From an uncultured Clostridia bacterium (GTDB taxonomy: Bacteria; Bacillota; Clostridia; Oscillospirales; Oscillospiraceae): DNA of 48,486 nucleotides. The position numbers and the translations under genes are program-made. The stretch lies in NCBI GenBank assembly GCA_946629065.1, contig CAMOXK010000009.1, positions 1 through 48,486 on the forward strand, read 5' to 3'. The notes under the pieces are model-generated. The model was not told the DNA's origin. It saw nothing but the letters and a program-made list of their open reading frames with translations, and made no database searches. Below, piece by piece: positions 39,104 through 47,266 of this stretch (the first letter of the stretch is position 1; the number at the start of each line of letters is the position of its first letter).

Positions 39104-39121
39104 CCGTTATGCGCTTTGTGC

Positions 39122-39287
39122 TAAGTAAACGCTGATTAAATCGTCTGCGGCGCCTCCCGGAAAACATGTGCTCTGATTTCGTCACTTTTTCTTGCAATAC
39201 ACAAAGTATTCCTGCGAAAAAGTGCCATCATCAGAACGCATATTTTCTCGGGATTCGCTCTTGCCGATTTAATCATCGTTTACCTAA
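39122..39287. mobile_element. MITE-like element A, copy 1
   Basis: 166-bp element with terminal inverted repeats of about 22 bp (TAAGTAAACGCTGATTAAATCG at the left; the right end read inward is TTAGGTAAACGATGATTAAATCG). Its interior folds into a long imperfect hairpin centred near ATACACAAAGTAT. The reverse complement recurs at 47093-47258 with three mismatches that I can count. It encodes no protein of its own. Its right end supplies the stop codon of the hxlR-type gene. Confidence 0.82.
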
Positions 39288-39664
39288 ATGGCGCAGATCC
39301 CGTCTTCTACAGGTGCCAAGGCGTCTGATCTTTCTCTTTCCATCTGTGCCTTATAGTCGCTGCCCCAGCTTTCCATAGCCTTGATGATGGGGCGCATGGA
39401 TTCGCCAAGCTCCGTCAGCGAGTATTCCACCCGGGGTGGGACCTCCGGATAAGCGGTGCGGAGGACGATCCCGTCGGCCTCCATGGAGCGCAGCGCCTCG
39501 GTCAGGGCCTTCTGGCTGATGCCCTCGATGCTCTTTTGCAGCTCGTTGAAGCGCCAGGAGCGCTCCAGGAGATTGCGCATGATGAGCAGCTTCCATTTGC
39601 TCCCGATCAGCGAAACGGTGGTGGCTACCGGGCATTCCGGCAGGATCTCTTCCTTTGTTCTCAT
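39284..39664 (-). CDS. HxlR-family transcriptional regulator
   Basis: 126-residue winged-helix protein. The HxlR core is clear: CPVATTVSLIGSKWKLLIMR at 11-30, then RFNELQKSIEGISQKALTEA, the wing RTAYPEVPPRVEYSLTELG and YSLTELGESMRPIIKAM. Cys11 sits where thiol-sensing members such as YodB and HypR carry their redox cysteine. The start at 39664 has GGAGG upstream; longer readings are artefacts. The stop codon TAG overlaps the end of MITE A copy 1, so the natural C-terminus may have been altered by the insertion. It is divergent from the sirtuin gene and likely regulates it. Confidence 0.9.
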   Translation of the reverse strand: MRTKEEILPECPVATTVSLIGSKWKLLIMRNLLERSWRFNELQKSIEGISQKALTEALRSMEADGIVLRTAYPEVPPRVEYSLTELGESMRPIIKAMESWGSDYKAQMERERSDALAPVEDGICAI

Positions 39665-39706
39665 GGGACGCGCCTCCAATACTTTCAAATTGAATGTTAC
39701 ACGCAA

Positions 39707-39735
39707 ATCATACTGCAATGCAGGTGCGGGCACAA
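39707..39735 (-). promoter_or_regulatory. Promoter of the HxlR regulator gene
   Basis: Minus-strand TTGTGC (39730-39735) and TATGAT (39707-39712), 17-bp spacer, 43 bp before the start codon. It is back-to-back with the sirtuin promoter. Confidence 0.55.
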
Positions 39736-39776
39736 GTGCTTTTTCAAAAAATCGACAGTTACAAAAAGGTGCGTAC

Positions 39777-39805
39777 TTGCCTCGCCGGTCGATCCCCTTT
39801 ATACT
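39777..39805 (+). promoter_or_regulatory. Promoter of the sirtuin/DUF1848 operon
   Basis: TTGCCT (39777-39782) and TATACT (39800-39805), 17-bp spacer, 31 bp before the start codon. Just upstream, GTTAC and GTAC half-sites about 10 bp apart (39758-39776) could hold the HxlR-type dimer; no proven consensus is matched. Confidence 0.65.
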
Positions 39806-39835
39806 GAACGCAGCAAACCCAAGGAGGCACAAACC

Positions 39836-40795
39836 ATGTTCAACAGAAACACAAAGAAGAAAACGCGCTTTTCGGATTTCCTGTCCGGGGAATACGCGCG
39901 GGACTATATCAATCAAGACACGCCCTATCCCGAGCAGATCGAACGGGCGGCAAAGCTCATCCGTCAGGCGGACTATGTCCTGATCGGAGCCGGAGCCGGG
40001 ATGAGCACGGCGGCCGGCGCGGAATATGGCGAAAAATTCTTTGAAGAAAACTTCGCCGAGTTTCAGCAGGTCTACGGCAAAGGGCCCTACATGCAGGACA
40101 TGTACTCCGCCGGCTTCTATCCCTTCCCCGATCAGGAGAGCAAGTGGGGCCTCTGGTCGCACCTGGCGCTGCTGGCTGGGGCGGATTTGGACGTGACGCC
40201 GCTGCATAAAACGCTGCTGAACGCGCTCGCGGGCAAGAAGCTCTTCCTCTTGAGCACCAACGCCGACCATCAGTTTGAAAAGGCCGGGCTGCCGGCAGAG
40301 CAGATCTTCCAGACGCAGGGCAGCTATCATCTCATCCAGTGCAAGCGCGGCTGTCACCCCAGGACCTACAACGCGGTGGAGCTTTTCCGGCAGATGGAAC
40401 GGGCGCGGCAAAACGGCAAGATCCCCGGTGAACTGGTTCCCAGGTGCCCGGTCTGCGGCGGCGATATGGCCATGAATCTGCGGGTGGATAACTTCTTTGT
40501 CGAGGACGAGAACTGGCACGCCGCCGAGGAGCGCTTCAGCCGCTTCCTCTCCGCGTGTATTGACGGGAAAACCGTCCTGCTGGAACTGGGCGTGGGCTTC
40601 AACACCCCCACGATCATCCGCTTCCCTTTTGAAAAGCTGACACGGGAGCATGAGAATCTGAATCTGGTGCGCCTGAGCCGCAGCAAAGCCATGGTCCCGG
40701 CCAGTCTTGGGGAGCGCGCCGTGGGCATCAACGCCGACATGGCCCAGAGCATCCGGGACATTGCCGCAAAGCTCAAGGAGGCAGACAAGGCATGA
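39836..40795 (+). CDS. Class M sirtuin (SirTM-like Sir2 protein)
   Basis: 319-residue NAD-dependent Sir2-fold protein. The NAD loop is GAGAGMSTAAG (51-61). The N142 and D144 pair (STNADHQFEKAG) and Gln161 (QTQGSYHLIQC), in place of the usual catalytic His, match the SirTM subclass, whose studied members are ADP-ribosyltransferases acting on lipoylated carrier proteins. A zinc site is formed by Cys169, Cys173, Cys204 and Cys207 (CKRGC, CPVC). Studied SirTM genes adjoin a macrodomain, GcvH-L and LplA2; none is here, and the partner is DUF1848. ATG at 39836 has AAGGAGG upstream. The stop overlaps the next gene by four bases. Confidence 0.9.
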   Translation: MFNRNTKKKTRFSDFLSGEYARDYINQDTPYPEQIERAAKLIRQADYVLIGAGAGMSTAAGAEYGEKFFEENFAEFQQVYGKGPYMQDMYSAGFYPFPDQESKWGLWSHLALLAGADLDVTPLHKTLLNALAGKKLFLLSTNADHQFEKAGLPAEQIFQTQGSYHLIQCKRGCHPRTYNAVELFRQMERARQNGKIPGELVPRCPVCGGDMAMNLRVDNFFVEDENWHAAEERFSRFLSACIDGKTVLLELGVGFNTPTIIRFPFEKLTREHENLNLVRLSRSKAMVPASLGERAVGINADMAQSIRDIAAKLKEADKA

Positions 40796-41724
40796 TCCTT
40801 CAAACCGGGATGCGCACGGACATCCCCGCCTTTTACTCCCGCTGGTTTCTCAAACGCCTGCTGGAGGGCTATGTTCTGGTGCGCAATCCCTATGATCCCC
40901 AGTCCGTGACCCGCTATCGGCTGGACCCGGCGGTGGTGGATCTGATCGGCTTTTGCAGCAAAAACCCGGCTCCCATGCTGCCCCATCTGGATGCGCTGCG
41001 GGACTACGGCCAATACTGGTTTGTGACCATCACCCCCTACGGGCGGGACCTTGAGCTCCATGTGCCGGATAAGGAACAGGTGATGGAGAGCTTCAAGCGC
41101 CTCTCGGACCGGGTCGGCCCGAACGCCATGGGCTGGCGCTATGACCCCATCCTGGTCAATGAACAGTACCCGGTGGAGCGGCACCTCCGGGATTTCGAGC
41201 ACATGGCCAGGACCCTATCCGGCTATACGGAAAGCTGCGTCATCTCCTTTCTCGACCTGTATGAGAAGGTGAAGCGCAACTTCCCCGAGGCCCGGGAGGT
41301 CAGGCGGGAGGACCGCATTGCCCTGGGCAAGGCCTTTGCTCAGATCGGGCAGAGCTATGGAATGACCATCCGCGCCTGCGCCGAGGGGACGGAGCTGGCC
41401 CCCTACGGGGTAAACTGCGAGGGCTGCATGACGGTGGAGATCTATGAAAAAGCCCTGAGCTGCAGTTTGAAAGTGCCCAGACGGAAAAACCAGCGGGGCG
41501 GGCAGTGCGCCTGCCTGCTGGGTACGGACATCGGCGCCTATGACAGCTGCGGTCACCTCTGCCGCTACTGCTACGCCAACAGCGACGCAGATCTTGTGCG
41601 GCGCAATCTCCTCTGCCACGACCCGGACTCCCCCTTCCTGCTGGGCGGTCCCCTGCCGGGGGACAAGATCCATGAGGCCCGGCAGGAGAGCTGGCGGGAC
41701 GATCAGCTCCGATTGGAATTATAA
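40792..41724 (+). CDS. DUF1848 protein with C-terminal CX3CX2C cluster
   Basis: 310-residue cytoplasmic protein. It starts with MRTDIPAFYSRWFLKRL, then a TIM-barrel-like body (WFVTITPYGRDLE near 76, MGWRYDPILVN near 113). The C-terminal part is rich in Cys: Cys239, Cys241, then Cys253, Cys257 and Cys260 in DSCGHLCRYCYANSD. CX3CX2C is the spacing of radical-SAM iron-sulfur clusters, but here it is at the C-terminal end. These features fit DUF1848, whose function is unknown to me. The start overlaps the sirtuin stop (ATGA), so they are co-translated. A MITE begins at its stop codon. Confidence 0.85.
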   Translation: MILQTGMRTDIPAFYSRWFLKRLLEGYVLVRNPYDPQSVTRYRLDPAVVDLIGFCSKNPAPMLPHLDALRDYGQYWFVTITPYGRDLELHVPDKEQVMESFKRLSDRVGPNAMGWRYDPILVNEQYPVERHLRDFEHMARTLSGYTESCVISFLDLYEKVKRNFPEAREVRREDRIALGKAFAQIGQSYGMTIRACAEGTELAPYGVNCEGCMTVEIYEKALSCSLKVPRRKNQRGGQCACLLGTDIGAYDSCGHLCRYCYANSDADLVRRNLLCHDPDSPFLLGGPLPGDKIHEARQESWRDDQLRLEL

Positions 41725-41888
41725 TACTACTTTCAAATAGAAATCTTTAAAGTCTTGTGGCCAGAATTGTGCCATACTTCGTTGAAGCCCTTGAACATAT
41801 ATCTCCATTATGCTCTGCGGCCTTCGCCTCGTCTGGCGCAATTGAAGTCTCGCAATCCTTTTTAAAGCTTCTTATTTGAAAGTAGTAT
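41724..41888. mobile_element. MITE-like element B, copy 1
   Basis: 165-bp element with terminal inverted repeats ATACTACTTTCAAATA and complement, extending imperfectly to about 28 bp. A second copy at 45070-45233 has the same orientation and differs only around one short site (AATTGAAGTCTC against AATTCTGTCTC). No coding capacity. It begins at the last base of the DUF1848 stop codon and ends at the first base of the terminator stem, so it sits exactly between gene and terminator. Confidence 0.85.
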
Positions 41889-41931
41889 AAAAAGCAGGTT
41901 CTGCCCCTTGCTGGGACAGGACCTGCTTTTT
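41889..41931. terminator. Bidirectional terminator
   Basis: Stem AAAAAGCAGGT-CTG with CAG-ACCTGCTTTTT (arms 41889-41903 and 41917-41931) with T-runs on both strands. It serves the sirtuin/DUF1848 operon from the left, now 165 bp away because of MITE B, and the cupin operon from the right. Confidence 0.88.
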
Positions 41932-41941
41932 CATTTTTTCT

Positions 41942-42391
41942 TTACCGGTAGGCGCTGCCGTTATAGCGTTCCTCCGTCACCACGGAGAAGTGGAAGATGG
42001 GCCGGTCCACCCGCAGGATGCGGATGGCGTGAGGCAGCTCCGGCGGCAGGAAGATCAGGCTGGAGCGGGTGATGGTATGCTCCTCCCCGTCCAGCTCCAC
42101 CCGGATCTCGCCATGCAGCTCGTGGGGGTCTTCCGGATCGGAACCGAAAAAGCCGATGATCTCCGCCGCGGCGTGCCGGTGCTGGGCGAAGATAGGGTCC
42201 TTCTCCGGGACCTTGCAGTACCAGGAGACGTTCATCTGAAAGGCTCCTGGCACCAGATCCCCGTCGATCCAGAGGACCCGCTTGGCAAAGCGCCGGTAGA
42301 TCTCCCGAAAATCCGGGGACATGGGCGGCTCATACTGGAGATCTGAAAGAATCAGATGCTCATATTTTGCGGCAGCTTTCTTTTCTTCCAT
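41942..42391 (-). CDS. Cupin-like protein of unknown function
   Basis: 149-residue soluble protein. A single cupin-type barrel is suggested by QHRHAAAEIIGFFGSDPEDP (two His and a Glu as metal ligands) and IFLPPELPHAIRI (second motif with Pro-His). The N-terminal 60 residues are specific to this protein type (PMSPDFREIYRRFAKRVLW). Last gene of an operon with a flavoprotein and a DUF3237 protein, 7 bp after the latter. It could bind or isomerise the same small aromatic or enone compound; this is inference. The ribosome site is weak. Confidence 0.72.
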   Translation of the reverse strand: MEEKKAAAKYEHLILSDLQYEPPMSPDFREIYRRFAKRVLWIDGDLVPGAFQMNVSWYCKVPEKDPIFAQHRHAAAEIIGFFGSDPEDPHELHGEIRVELDGEEHTITRSSLIFLPPELPHAIRILRVDRPIFHFSVVTEERYNGSAYR

Positions 42392-42398
42392 CTGCGTT

Positions 42399-42842
42399 TC
42401 ACCGTTCCGATTCGGTCTCGTAAAAGCGGATGTGCAGACCTTCCTCGTCCCGGATCCCCTCCCCGATAAAGCAGTTTCGGTGAAGCAGAGGCGCCAGGGC
42501 TTCGGAGTCCGTCAAGAAGCCGGGGACGGAGTGCCAGGGTTTGGGCCTGGCCCCGTCGGTGAACCAGCCCTCGTTCTGCACAAAGATCTGGCAGGGAGTT
42601 CCGGTGTGGTCTGTCCCGGTCAGCATATAGCGGGCGGACATGTGGCGCACCTGGGCGGCGTTGGTGATCTGGGTATCCACGGCGCCGGGTTCGATAAGGC
42701 CCTGAAAGAGGGGCCCCGTCGCCGTGCCGGAAAAGGGGATCATGCGCACCCGGCAGCTCTCCCCCTCCAGTTCCACGGTCTTCTCCGGGTCAGTTTGGAT
42801 CAGCAGCTCCAGGATGGGGGTCGTTTCCGATGCTTCCTTCAT
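42399..42842 (-). CDS. DUF3237 family protein
   Basis: 147-residue protein with the DUF3237 pattern: GPLFQGLIEPGAVDTQ near residue 43, ARYMLTGTDHTGTPCQIFVQ near 70, and WHSVPGFLTDSEALAPL later. The family forms a small beta-barrel found near oxidoreductases and degradative enzymes; its function is not settled. It starts 3 bp after the flavoprotein stop without a clear ribosome site, so it is probably translated by coupling. Confidence 0.75.
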   Translation of the reverse strand: MKEASETTPILELLIQTDPEKTVELEGESCRVRMIPFSGTATGPLFQGLIEPGAVDTQITNAAQVRHMSARYMLTGTDHTGTPCQIFVQNEGWFTDGARPKPWHSVPGFLTDSEALAPLLHRNCFIGEGIRDEEGLHIRFYETESER

Positions 42843-42845
42843 TTC

Positions 42846-44789
42846 TCAAATATCCAGGGCGGCGTGGTGGCCCTGATAGGTGGCCTTGGTGATGGTGCCG
42901 ACGGCGTTGGCGTCGCCGATCACGCGTACCCAGGGCGCGCAGTCATAGAGCTCCTGGGCTACGTTCCAGCGGGGACGCTGTCCCAGCGCGCAGATGATCG
43001 TCGTGCCGGGGACCAGGACCTTTTCGCCCTCCTTGGTCTGGCACCAGATGCCCTCGGCTGTGACTTCCAGACCCTTGTAGCCGGTGTGCACGGTGACGAG
43101 CTTGTTGAGCTTCTCCAGCAGCAGCGGGCGCTGCCGGATGACGGAGTCCAGCGCCACGTCGTCGCGCATCTCGACGAGATGCACAGTTTTTCCTTCCATG
43201 CCCATGTGGATGGCGCACTCCACGCCGGAGATGCCGCCGCCGAAGACCACCACAGAGTCCGTGATGGGCTTTTCGTGCTTGTACTGGTCGTTGACCAGGA
43301 TCACGTTCTCGCCGTCCAGACCGGGGATGGGCGGGCGCAGCGGGGAGGAACCGGCGGCAATGATGATGGCGTCGGCGTGATAGGCCTCGGCAAATTCCTT
43401 GGTGACCTCCTGCCCGGTGACGATCTTCGCTCCGGCCTTCTCGGCCAGGCGCTTGTAGGTCTCGCCCAGCATGAACATCTCCTGCTTGAAGGGCAGCACT
43501 TCCTCGCTCTTGAGGATGCCGCCCACCCGGTCTTCCTTCTCGCAGAGCAGCACGTCATGGCCGCGTCTGGCTGCCGTATAAGCCGCGTAGAGGCCGCCGG
43601 GGCCGCCGCCCACCACGAGGACGCGCTTCTTCACGGGTGCCGGGGTGATCTCCATGCCCTCGTCCTCGCGGCCGATGATCGGGTTGATGGCGCATCTTCT
43701 GGTGCCGGTGGCAGCGCGCTCGGACATGCAGACGAAGCAGCGCATGCAGTGGACGATCTCATCGTCCCGGTTCTCCATGACCTTCTGGGGCAGGAAGGGA
43801 TCGGCCAGCAGCTGGCGGCCCATCTCCACGATGTCCGCTTTGCCGCTTGCGATGATCTCCTCCATCTGCGCGGGATCAGAAAGGCCGCCGATGGTGGCCA
43901 CGGGGATAGAGACGTGCTTCTTGATCTCCGCCGCGAGATACACGTTGCGGCCGTGCTCCTCAAACATGGAGGGGTGGGTGATGCCGAAGGTGCGCTGGTA
44001 GGTGCCCGCGGTCACGTGCAGCAGGTCCACATAGGGCTCGAGGATCTTGGCGATCTTGATGCCCTCGTCCAGATCATAACCCTCGGGGACAAACTCCGCG
44101 CCGGAGAGACGGAACTCGATTGGGAAGCCAGGGCCGACCGCGGCGCGGACAGATTTCAGAATCTCGATGGCGAGACGGCAGCGGTTCTCGGTGGAGCCGC
44201 CGTATTCGTCGGTGCGGTGGTTGAACATGGGGGACAGGAACTGGTTGATGAGCCAGCCGTGGCCGCCGTGGACCATCAGCATCTCAAAGCCCGCCCGCTT
44301 GCAGAGGCCCGCCACATGGCCGTAGGCCGCCACGATCTCGGCGATCATCTCCTTGCTCATGGCCTTGTAGGGCACGCCGTCAGCTCTCACGCCGTCGTCG
44401 GCGCTCCACTGGTTCAGGCCGTGCTGCTTGTTTTTGTCGGTCATGTACGTACCGGCGAACATGCCGGAGTGAGAAAGCTCCGCGCTGGGGATGGCGCCGT
44501 GGCGGCGGATGGCGTCGGCGGCGTAGGTGGCCTTGGGCAGAGAGTTCAAAATGCTCTCGTCCAGACGGTAGGCGTGGCTTCCGTCGCTGGGGTGCACCAT
44601 CAGCTCGCTGATCGTGACCGCCGCGCAGCCGCCCTTGGCGCGGTACTCGTAAAAGGCCTGGGACTTGGGGCCGATGCAGCCGTCCAGCTCGATGTCCGTG
44701 CCGCCCATGGGGGTGGAGAACATGCGGTTGCGATACCAGACGTTGCCGATGCGGATGGGCTTGCAAAGATTGGGGTACTTGCGTTCCAT
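42846..44789 (-). CDS. Old Yellow Enzyme-type FMN/Fe-S/FAD oxidoreductase
   Basis: 647-residue enoate-reductase-like protein (2,4-dienoyl-CoA reductase/BaiCD group). An N-terminal FMN TIM barrel (residues 1-340: VHGGHGWLINQFLSPMFNHR, HTHPS-type segment near 280, GRQLLADP) is followed by Cys residues of a 4Fe-4S cluster (CMRCFVC...CAINP) and a C-terminal pyridine nucleotide/FAD domain (VLVVGGGPGGLYAA near 410, VVVFGGGISGVECA near 520). It reduces alpha,beta-unsaturated carbonyls; gut relatives act on bile acids, flavonoids or enoates. ATG at 44789 has AAAGGAG. The substrate is unknown. It follows a Cys-rich mini-protein by 13 bp. Confidence 0.9.
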   Translation of the reverse strand: MERKYPNLCKPIRIGNVWYRNRMFSTPMGGTDIELDGCIGPKSQAFYEYRAKGGCAAVTISELMVHPSDGSHAYRLDESILNSLPKATYAADAIRRHGAIPSAELSHSGMFAGTYMTDKNKQHGLNQWSADDGVRADGVPYKAMSKEMIAEIVAAYGHVAGLCKRAGFEMLMVHGGHGWLINQFLSPMFNHRTDEYGGSTENRCRLAIEILKSVRAAVGPGFPIEFRLSGAEFVPEGYDLDEGIKIAKILEPYVDLLHVTAGTYQRTFGITHPSMFEEHGRNVYLAAEIKKHVSIPVATIGGLSDPAQMEEIIASGKADIVEMGRQLLADPFLPQKVMENRDDEIVHCMRCFVCMSERAATGTRRCAINPIIGREDEGMEITPAPVKKRVLVVGGGPGGLYAAYTAARRGHDVLLCEKEDRVGGILKSEEVLPFKQEMFMLGETYKRLAEKAGAKIVTGQEVTKEFAEAYHADAIIIAAGSSPLRPPIPGLDGENVILVNDQYKHEKPITDSVVVFGGGISGVECAIHMGMEGKTVHLVEMRDDVALDSVIRQRPLLLEKLNKLVTVHTGYKGLEVTAEGIWCQTKEGEKVLVPGTTIICALGQRPRWNVAQELYDCAPWVRVIGDANAVGTITKATYQGHHAALDI

Positions 44790-44802
44790 GGCGTTTTCTC
44801 CT

Positions 44803-45009
44803 TTATTCTTCGTTGATCTTTCGGTTTTCCCGGATATCCCGCAGCAGGGACCTGTAGCTTCTTTCATGCCAGGCCTCCCCTTCTTTGGTGAAGAAGCAGG
44901 CCGGGACCCCGGGCGTTTGGAAGCGGTGGTTTGCCACGCAGGCGGCGCAGTTGCCGTGCCGGGGACAGTTTCGTGTGCAGGGGCAGCTTGCTTTTATTGT
45001 ATCATCCAT
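44803..45009 (-). CDS. Small Cys-rich protein
   Basis: 68-residue protein with six Cys in the first half (ASCPCTRNCPRHGNCAACVA, then a later Cys in PACFF), likely binding zinc or an iron-sulfur cluster. I recognise the CPC...CPRHGNCxxC layout as a small conserved Firmicute domain of unknown role. ATG at 45009 has AAGGAGAGG upstream. First gene of the flavoprotein operon; a terminator hairpin and MITE B copy 2 lie just upstream, leaving little room for a promoter. Confidence 0.72.
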   Translation of the reverse strand: MDDTIKASCPCTRNCPRHGNCAACVANHRFQTPGVPACFFTKEGEAWHERSYRSLLRDIRENRKINEE

Positions 45010-45069: not shown

Positions 45070-45233
45070 ATACTACTTTCAAATAGAAATCTTTAAAGTC
45101 TTGTGGCCAGAATTGTGCCATACTTCGTTGAAGCCCTTGAACATATATCTCCATTATGCTCTGCGGCCTTCGCCTCGTCTGGCGCAATTCTGTCTCGCAA
45201 TCCTTTTTAAAGCTTCTTATTTGAAAGTAGTAT
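45070..45233. mobile_element. MITE-like element B, copy 2
   Basis: 164-bp near-identical copy of the element at 41724-41888, same orientation, with the same ATACTACTTTCAAATA ends. Its right end overlaps the first base (+ strand) of the esterase stop codon, and its left end lies 7 bp from the terminator stem. As in copy 1, it separates a gene from its terminator. Confidence 0.85.
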
Positions 45234-47092: not shown

Positions 47093-47258
47093 TTAGGTAA
47101 ACGATGATTAAATCGGCAAGAGCGAATCCCGAGAAAATATGCGTTCTGATGATGGTACTTTTTCGCAGGAATACTTTGTGTATTGCAAGAAAAAGTGACG
47201 AAATCAGAGCACATATTTTCCGGGAGGCGCCGCAGACGATTTGATCAGCGTTTACTTA
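47093..47258. mobile_element. MITE-like element A, copy 2
   Basis: Reverse complement of the element at 39122-39287, three mismatches in 166 bp. Here the inverted ends extend outward: GCGAATGAT at 47082-47090 and its complement at 47261-47269 flank the element, so the full element may be nearer 190 bp. It lies between the esterase and SLC13 permease genes. Confidence 0.82.
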
Positions 47259-47266
47259 GCATCATT

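Follow-up and report, generated by a model that had tools for sequence, protein, structure and literature searches.

A class M sirtuin operon variant with a DUF1848 protein, a circularly permuted relative of radical-SAM domains, in an uncultured Clostridia bacterium

Described SirTM operons and the locus compared with them

Class M sirtuins (SirTM) are known from extended operons of Lactobacillales and Staphylococcaceae, in which, as far as the accessible text of two papers goes, LplA2 lipoylates GcvH-L before SirTM acts on it (PMC4518038, PMC11490716), and from minimal SirTM/Zn-macrodomain (SirTM/Zn-Macro) operons such as that of Methanobrevibacter oralis with its macrodomain MorMacro, a type described in 2024 (PMC11490716). 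The available part of the latter paper names lipoylated GcvH-L as the only known SirTM target and calls the targets of other SirTM/Zn-Macro systems unknown. Here, we analyzed a stretch of 48,486 nucleotides from an uncultured Clostridia bacterium of the family Oscillospiraceae, akin to Clostridia of the rumen (GenBank assembly GCA_946629065.1, contig CAMOXK010000009.1; ‘the window’ in short), which carries a module of three genes: a SirTM, a protein of the uncharacterised family DUF1848 and an HxlR-family transcription regulator. The source genome comprises 2.37 Mb in 203 contigs and is 67% complete.

The SirTM gene (39836-40795, plus strand, 319 amino acids (aa)) is followed on the same strand by the DUF1848 gene (40792-41724, 310 aa; PF08902, E 2.8e-98), and the HxlR gene lies divergent from the sirtuin gene (39284-39664, minus strand, 126 aa; PF01638, E 9.4e-32). 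The stop of SirTM and the start of DUF1848 share the bases ATGA. A preliminary description of this DNA had called the DUF1848 protein fused to the sirtuin by this overlap; the 4-base overlap was confirmed, but the two proteins are separate. On the whole, the observations in that description were confirmed in part and its interpretation was supported in part.

Sequence, motif and predicted fold all place the sirtuin in class M, as had been claimed, and ADP-ribosyltransferase activity is predicted from this class membership. According to the part of PMC4518038 available, the hallmark of the class is Gln137 of SpySirTM in place of the catalytic His, Asn118 and Arg192 are required for activity, and Asp120 touches nicotinamide. 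Gln161 of the window SirTM aligns with Gln137, thus replacing the catalytic His, and is invariant in 22 aligned rows, as are Asn142 and Arg216; the Asp144 position holds Asp in 19 of the 22 rows and Glu in the other three. GVGFNTP at residues 252-258 fits the class M motif GVGx[NT]TP, and four Cys (169, 173, 204 and 207) make up a putative zinc site. The Asn258 position, where Asn binds the adenine ribose and is termed highly conserved but not class-defining in the available text (PMC4518038), is occupied by Ser in the window SirTM and in L009, L018 and L021, while Asn is kept in L019, L026 and others. No family was returned for the protein by a Pfam search at E up to 0.01, and its NCBIfam deacylase match was weak (21 bits vs a cut-off of 243). 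The identity of an ordinary deacetylase, which the preliminary description had named as a possible refutation, was rejected: the protein groups with SirTM and not with deacylases, by sequence comparison rather than in a tree built with deacetylases. Divergent SirTM-like genes were also observed as tandem pairs at three loci (L272, L274, L276), with QGD at the catalytic Gln site of one member and EGK or EGT in the other, and these perhaps represent active/inactive pairs.

The statement that no macrodomain accompanies the module holds for the window, in which no Zn-macrodomain is adjacent or fused to SirTM, but not for the organism. Three macrodomain matches were found in the source genome, and the one on contig C18 (L052) is of the Zn-macrodomain type, with MorMacro (8rsi) as its best PDB match (E 9.4e-79); absence of a macrodomain from the organism was therefore rejected. 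Judged by eye, a loop GCFRPGHNCIDNVIH with Dx3H replaces the Gly-rich loop of this protein, from which zinc binding is predicted. Its gene adjoins one matched by a flavin-reductase profile. In G109, a genome of the same genus as the source, SirTM, DUF1848 and Zn-macrodomain genes form one operon in this order (on a contig of 544,753 bases, also represented by locus L019), and the same order was found in L022.

As the source genome and the G109 operon each contain a Zn-macrodomain, we assign the window module, as a variant, to the minimal SirTM/Zn-Macro operons already known. It shares with this type the class M sirtuin, the cognate-type Zn-macrodomain (elsewhere in the genome here, within the operon in relatives), and the lack of a recognised GcvH-L or LplA2 gene beside SirTM (with LplA judged by gene calls and by Pfam matches of sampled neighbors rather than by a profile search). 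It differs in having DUF1848 as a third gene, in its divergent HxlR gene with a conserved box, and in that the macrodomain is unlinked. The extended operons are alike in the class M sirtuin and in companion redox enzymes, which in our case occur in relatives; unlike them, the window's three-gene module is devoid of GcvH-L and LplA2, with DUF1848 in the place of the client or modifier.

The DUF1848 protein, its linkage to SirTM and the HxlR box

The window DUF1848 protein is covered by PF08902 over the whole profile (329 bits, positions 1-262 of 262). In native order it had no match to Pfam Radical_SAM, DUF1848 alone being reported at E up to 0.01. When circularly permuted, it matched the profile of radical S-adenosylmethionine (SAM) proteins of the spore-photoproduct-lyase (SPL) type, a group which we take to be COG1533-like, at 97.0% (E 1.1e-10) over 212 columns. 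The control comparisons gave 90.1% over just 23 columns in native order and 0.3% for the reversed sequence. By VIA-align, the structural relation is to radical-SAM enzymes, in the part after their cluster loop. DUF1848 is accordingly related to SPL-type radical-SAM domains by circular permutation, and the uncharacterised family thereby gains a fold, that of a circularly permuted radical-SAM barrel. Once permuted, DUF1848 aligns with these proteins in both the CxxxCxxC motif and the barrel; unlike theirs, its cluster motif is C-terminal (Cys253, Cys257 and Cys260) and four further Cys are present (196, 212, 239 and 241). All seven Cys are invariant in 74 of 74 rows. A [4Fe-4S] cluster is predicted from these residues, as are, at most, SAM binding and cleavage. 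The open-licence literature searched held no mention of DUF1848, and none of SirTM together with ‘radical SAM’. At a locus of Paenibacillus illinoisensis (L050:2664-3949), a SirTM frame consisting of the C-terminal part only is followed by a native-order SPL-type radical-SAM gene, with HxlR adjoining, so that an unpermuted relative occupies the position of DUF1848.

The occurrence of the two genes was surveyed in genome samples drawn from larger groups, comprising 150 genomes of the family and 391 of the class. SirTM-like matches were counted at E 1e-15 or better, and at most six sirtuin candidates were scored per genome in the class sample. In the family sample, 51 genomes had SirTM-like matches, 20 had DUF1848 and 11 had both. 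The macrodomain was the usual SirTM partner, at least 33 of the 51 having one no more than 2 kb away. DUF1848 was matched in 92 class genomes (89 above the Pfam cut-off) and SirTM in 70; 28 had both, vs 16.5 expected (Fisher 5e-4, relatedness ignored). The two genes were close together in five of these 28, side by side in G000 and G291 and with a macrodomain between them in G252, G508 and G276, as compared with about 0.05 adjacencies expected by chance (hand arithmetic, assuming ~2,500 genes and a distance within two genes). A further genome, G275, has weak remnants of both genes, also with a macrodomain between.

Several gene orders were observed. SirTM-DUF1848 is found in the window, L003, L009, L010, L011 and L018; Macro-SirTM-DUF1848 in L040 and L156 (the macrodomain of the latter split over two frames); DUF1848-Macro-SirTM in L157, L158 and L159; and DUF1848-SirTM in L086. 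The ATGA-type overlap of 4 bases recurs in seven near relatives of the window (L003, L009, L010, L011, L018, L019 and L022) and in L156. The label of linkage changed (as gains or losses) at least six times on the DUF1848 tree, and likewise at least six times on the SirTM tree. All eight linked rows fell within one clade of 30 in a 100-row DUF1848 tree (Shimodaira-Hasegawa-like approximate likelihood ratio test, 97), from which fragments and a row with an internal stop (L236) were left out and which also includes L040, a row taken from the sirtuin scan. SirTM was present in the genome for 21 of the 29 survey rows of this clade vs 14 of 70 outside (Fisher 1.3e-6), for related and thus not independent rows and a clade first seen in a tree that included SirTM-derived rows. 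Genomes with a weak sirtuin (G391, G514, G350, G163) were here counted as being without SirTM, and some genomes contributed two rows. DUF1848 is thus a facultative partner of SirTM, but one that recurs, also in distant Clostridia.

Near SirTM at 66 loci with 1.4 kb of sequence on either side, we found a macrodomain at 49, HxlR at 24, a PNPOx-type protein (with or without a ferredoxin domain) at 20, DUF1848 at 12 and a nitroreductase-ferredoxin at five. This set includes L156-L159, fetched for a nearby DUF1848, and L096, fetched for a macrodomain elsewhere, but not L084, L127 and L028, which were duplicate or incomplete. Genes for HxlR, radical-SAM/SPASM, zinc alcohol dehydrogenase (ADH) and nitroreductase proteins recur in part with SirTM or DUF1848 at L157, L166, L020, L025 and L027, which is suggestive of one more type of extended SirTM operon. 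Decayed frames of DUF1848, macrodomain and SirTM were also observed consecutively at the end of a viral-filed IMG/VR contig (3300010163_002063; L176, L177), whose DUF1848 was the sole match from a pattern scan of that collection.

The regulator has a helix-turn-helix domain well within the HxlR family (109 bits vs a Pfam cut-off of 20.8) and is matched by NCBIfam redox_TF_RrpB at E 2.7e-33, yet below that model's own cut-off. Its N-terminal Cys, noted in the preliminary description, is Cys11. Of 30 HxlR genes lying at most 1.5 kb from a SirTM on the opposite strand, 28 have Cys at this position and the remaining two have a gap; Cys is also present in four of five same-strand copies near SirTM (profile matches). 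Redox sensing via an N-terminal Cys is a feature of some HxlR members, and the window HxlR may sense redox state through Cys11. In the gap between the HxlR and sirtuin genes, the box TTACAAAAAGGTGCGTACTTG (39759-39779, plus strand) lies 5′ of the sirtuin's TATACT -10-like hexamer. No other match occurred in the window, and 100 shuffles gave none at all; the box may be the operator bound by HxlR. Upstream of SirTM in many near relatives stands an identical or similar box, and after it a hexamer resembling TATACT or TATAAT. A scan of 78 SirTM loci gave a score of at least 20 in 21 (best of 20 shuffles, one of 78), namely 14 of 30 loci with HxlR near vs seven of 48 without; the scan is partly circular, as most of the 27 boxes used to train the matrix came from the scanned loci. 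One training box (L003) was out of register, and the scan missed the window and L009 since their sirtuin frames had been called too long. In G413, SirTM and DUF1848 lie on different contigs; a box with two mismatches precedes a radical-SAM/nitroreductase/DUF1848 set (L166), and one with a single mismatch lies ~2.7 kb upstream of SirTM (L280). HxlR was absent among the matches listed for its mention with a sirtuin or macrodomain in the open-licence literature.

DUF1848 as a candidate SirTM client and other explanations

We tentatively propose an HxlR-controlled system in which SirTM ADP-ribosylates a radical-SAM-like Fe-S client, DUF1848, and the Zn-macrodomain undoes the modification. Upon oxidative or electrophile stress, HxlR with its sensor-type cysteine would leave the conserved operator, whereupon SirTM-DUF1848 would be transcribed and both proteins co-produced via the ATGA overlap. 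SirTM would then consume NAD+ and ADP-ribosylate DUF1848, presumed to be an iron-sulfur protein whose radical-SAM barrel is circularly permuted; this may switch the protein off or shield its exposed cluster. Once the stress is over, the Zn-macrodomain, adjacent in relatives and on another contig here, would strip off the ADP-ribose. DUF1848 would stand, as the client, where lipoylated GcvH-L stands in staphylococci and streptococci. A similar logic is known from DraT/DraG, a reversible ADP-ribosylation switch on the nitrogenase Fe protein, an Fe-S protein, although the enzyme families are other than SirTM and Zn-Macro. With DUF1848, the operon variant of the window offers a client candidate that can be tested. 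It is more doubtful that such a reversible switch acts on the SirTM-linked DUF1848 clade as a previously unrecognised permuted radical-SAM enzyme and the first SirTM client besides lipoylated GcvH-L; if true, ADP-ribosylation would control a radical-SAM enzyme and the clients of SirTM would extend beyond lipoylated GcvH-L.

The client proposal is favored because the two genes overlap by 4 bases, their linkage recurs, the clade co-occurs with SirTM, redox genes lie nearby and GcvH is scarce. GcvH was matched (E below 1e-15) in only 10 of the 51 family genomes with SirTM, which are drafts, and never beside SirTM, so that another client seems to be needed in most. Several results weigh against it. 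DUF1848 is adjacent to SirTM in just three of the 51 family genomes with SirTM (G000, G109, G141) and near it in five of the 70 of the class, plus one remnant. The preliminary description had held that the module would be accidental if the pair were rarely adjacent in relatives; the pairing did prove uncommon, but the recurrent adjacency, several gene orders and single DUF1848 clade support a link beyond mere accident. Eight of the 30 rows of the linked clade come from genomes without a counted SirTM match, and 64 of the 92 class genomes with DUF1848 have no SirTM-like match at all. DUF1848 thus occurs mostly without SirTM in the genome and would therefore have a role of its own; as an occasional partner only, it is not a general SirTM client. 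Near the organism's own macrodomain, 9 kb of C18 held no match to the HxlR box at up to three mismatches and none at up to five. Upstream of DUF1848 (at least 200 bases), a box score of at least 10 was reached in one of 26 rows of the linked clade and in none of 68 outside. The idea that linked DUF1848 genes are generally marked by the box is hence unsupported, and the rarity of the box there may be explained by copies inside an operon needing no box of their own. Finally, the linkage may mean no more than a shared regulon, since SirTM repeatedly has other redox genes nearby (nitroreductase-ferredoxin, PNPOx-type, ADH).

The main and close rival takes up this last point: DUF1848 would be an independent enzyme of the response to redox change or damage and SirTM would modify something else, the two having only the HxlR-controlled operon and its regulation in common. 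We regard this as a serious possibility, short of being probable, given the PNPOx-type, nitroreductase-ferredoxin and HxlR genes at the 66 loci, the radical-SAM/SPASM or ADH genes in L157, L020, L025 and L027, and the frequent occurrence of DUF1848 in genomes devoid of SirTM. However, the overlap in the window, its seven near relatives and L156, together with a linkage confined to one DUF1848 clade whose members co-occur with SirTM even when unlinked, suggests more than shared regulation. It is rather improbable that DUF1848 instead prepares the substrate, making a radical-SAM-type modification on a still unidentified protein which SirTM then ADP-ribosylates. Such a role would parallel that of LplA2 in the extended operon and fit the radical-SAM relationship, but next to the pair in the window no gene for a carrier or a peptide could be recognised, no systematic search having been made for one. 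Such a carrier could be encoded, in some relatives, by a conserved gene of only 135-140 aa downstream of SirTM; it was found directly or closely after SirTM in L008 (2053-2466), L014 (6632-7054) and L016 (1800-2207) and further off in L011 (3441-3854), and not in the window. It clusters with radical-SAM/SPASM proteins but is devoid of CxxxCxxC, and its L008 copy had no Pfam match.

The remaining explanations fare worse. SirTM could act on lipoylated GcvH through unlinked partners, as in staphylococci, with DUF1848 being irrelevant, and the source genome does have one GcvH match (contig C114, E 1.3e-37) besides the Zn-macrodomain on C18. This is nevertheless very improbable, as G109 carries the complete SirTM-DUF1848-Macro operon at 95% completeness with no GcvH match, and as MorMacro, to which the organism's own Zn-Macro is closest among solved structures, does not demodify GcvH-L according to the available text (PMC11490716). 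An accidental neighborhood would agree with the minority of genomes in which DUF1848 lies near SirTM, but it is largely refuted, with little probability left, by the excess over chance among the 28 class genomes and by the repeated label changes on each tree. Least likely of all is that DUF1848 is the reversal enzyme in the macrodomain's stead, one of the roles offered in the preliminary description. It would account for a window without a macrodomain beside DUF1848, but the Zn-macrodomain is present in the same genome and in the DUF1848 operon of relatives, and the profile relation of DUF1848 is to radical-SAM proteins.

Repeats and neighboring genes

Directly 3′ of the DUF1848 stop lies a repeat resembling a miniature inverted-repeat transposable element (MITE; 41719-41893, no strand assigned), with a second copy at 45070-45233. 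The element is ~170 bp long with terminal inverted repeats (arms of 33 nt, 85%) and folds into a long hairpin (z -5.4). The 2.37-Mb draft holds at least 32 near-full copies of 92-100% identity, the window copy included (40 of 54 candidates scored). Matches begin at base 1 of contigs C2, C32, C75 and C108, and the contigs therefore appear to break in copies of the element. The copy 3′ of DUF1848 occupies the place of the Zn-macrodomain gene in G109, and we can only guess that the repeat caused the separation of the macrodomain. Another repeat, unlike the first and 169 nt long, occurs in two inverted copies at 39119-39287 and 47093-47261, which are 98% alike within the window. Its ends resemble terminal inverted repeats, and one copy abuts the HxlR 3′ end.

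Further downstream on the minus strand (41942-44867) are genes for an old yellow enzyme (OYE)-type/FAD oxidoreductase (673 aa), a DUF3237 protein and a cupin-like protein. Extended SirTM operons are also accompanied by an OYE, according to the accessible part of PMC4518038; the OYE-type gene of the window belongs to a gene group separate from the SirTM module.

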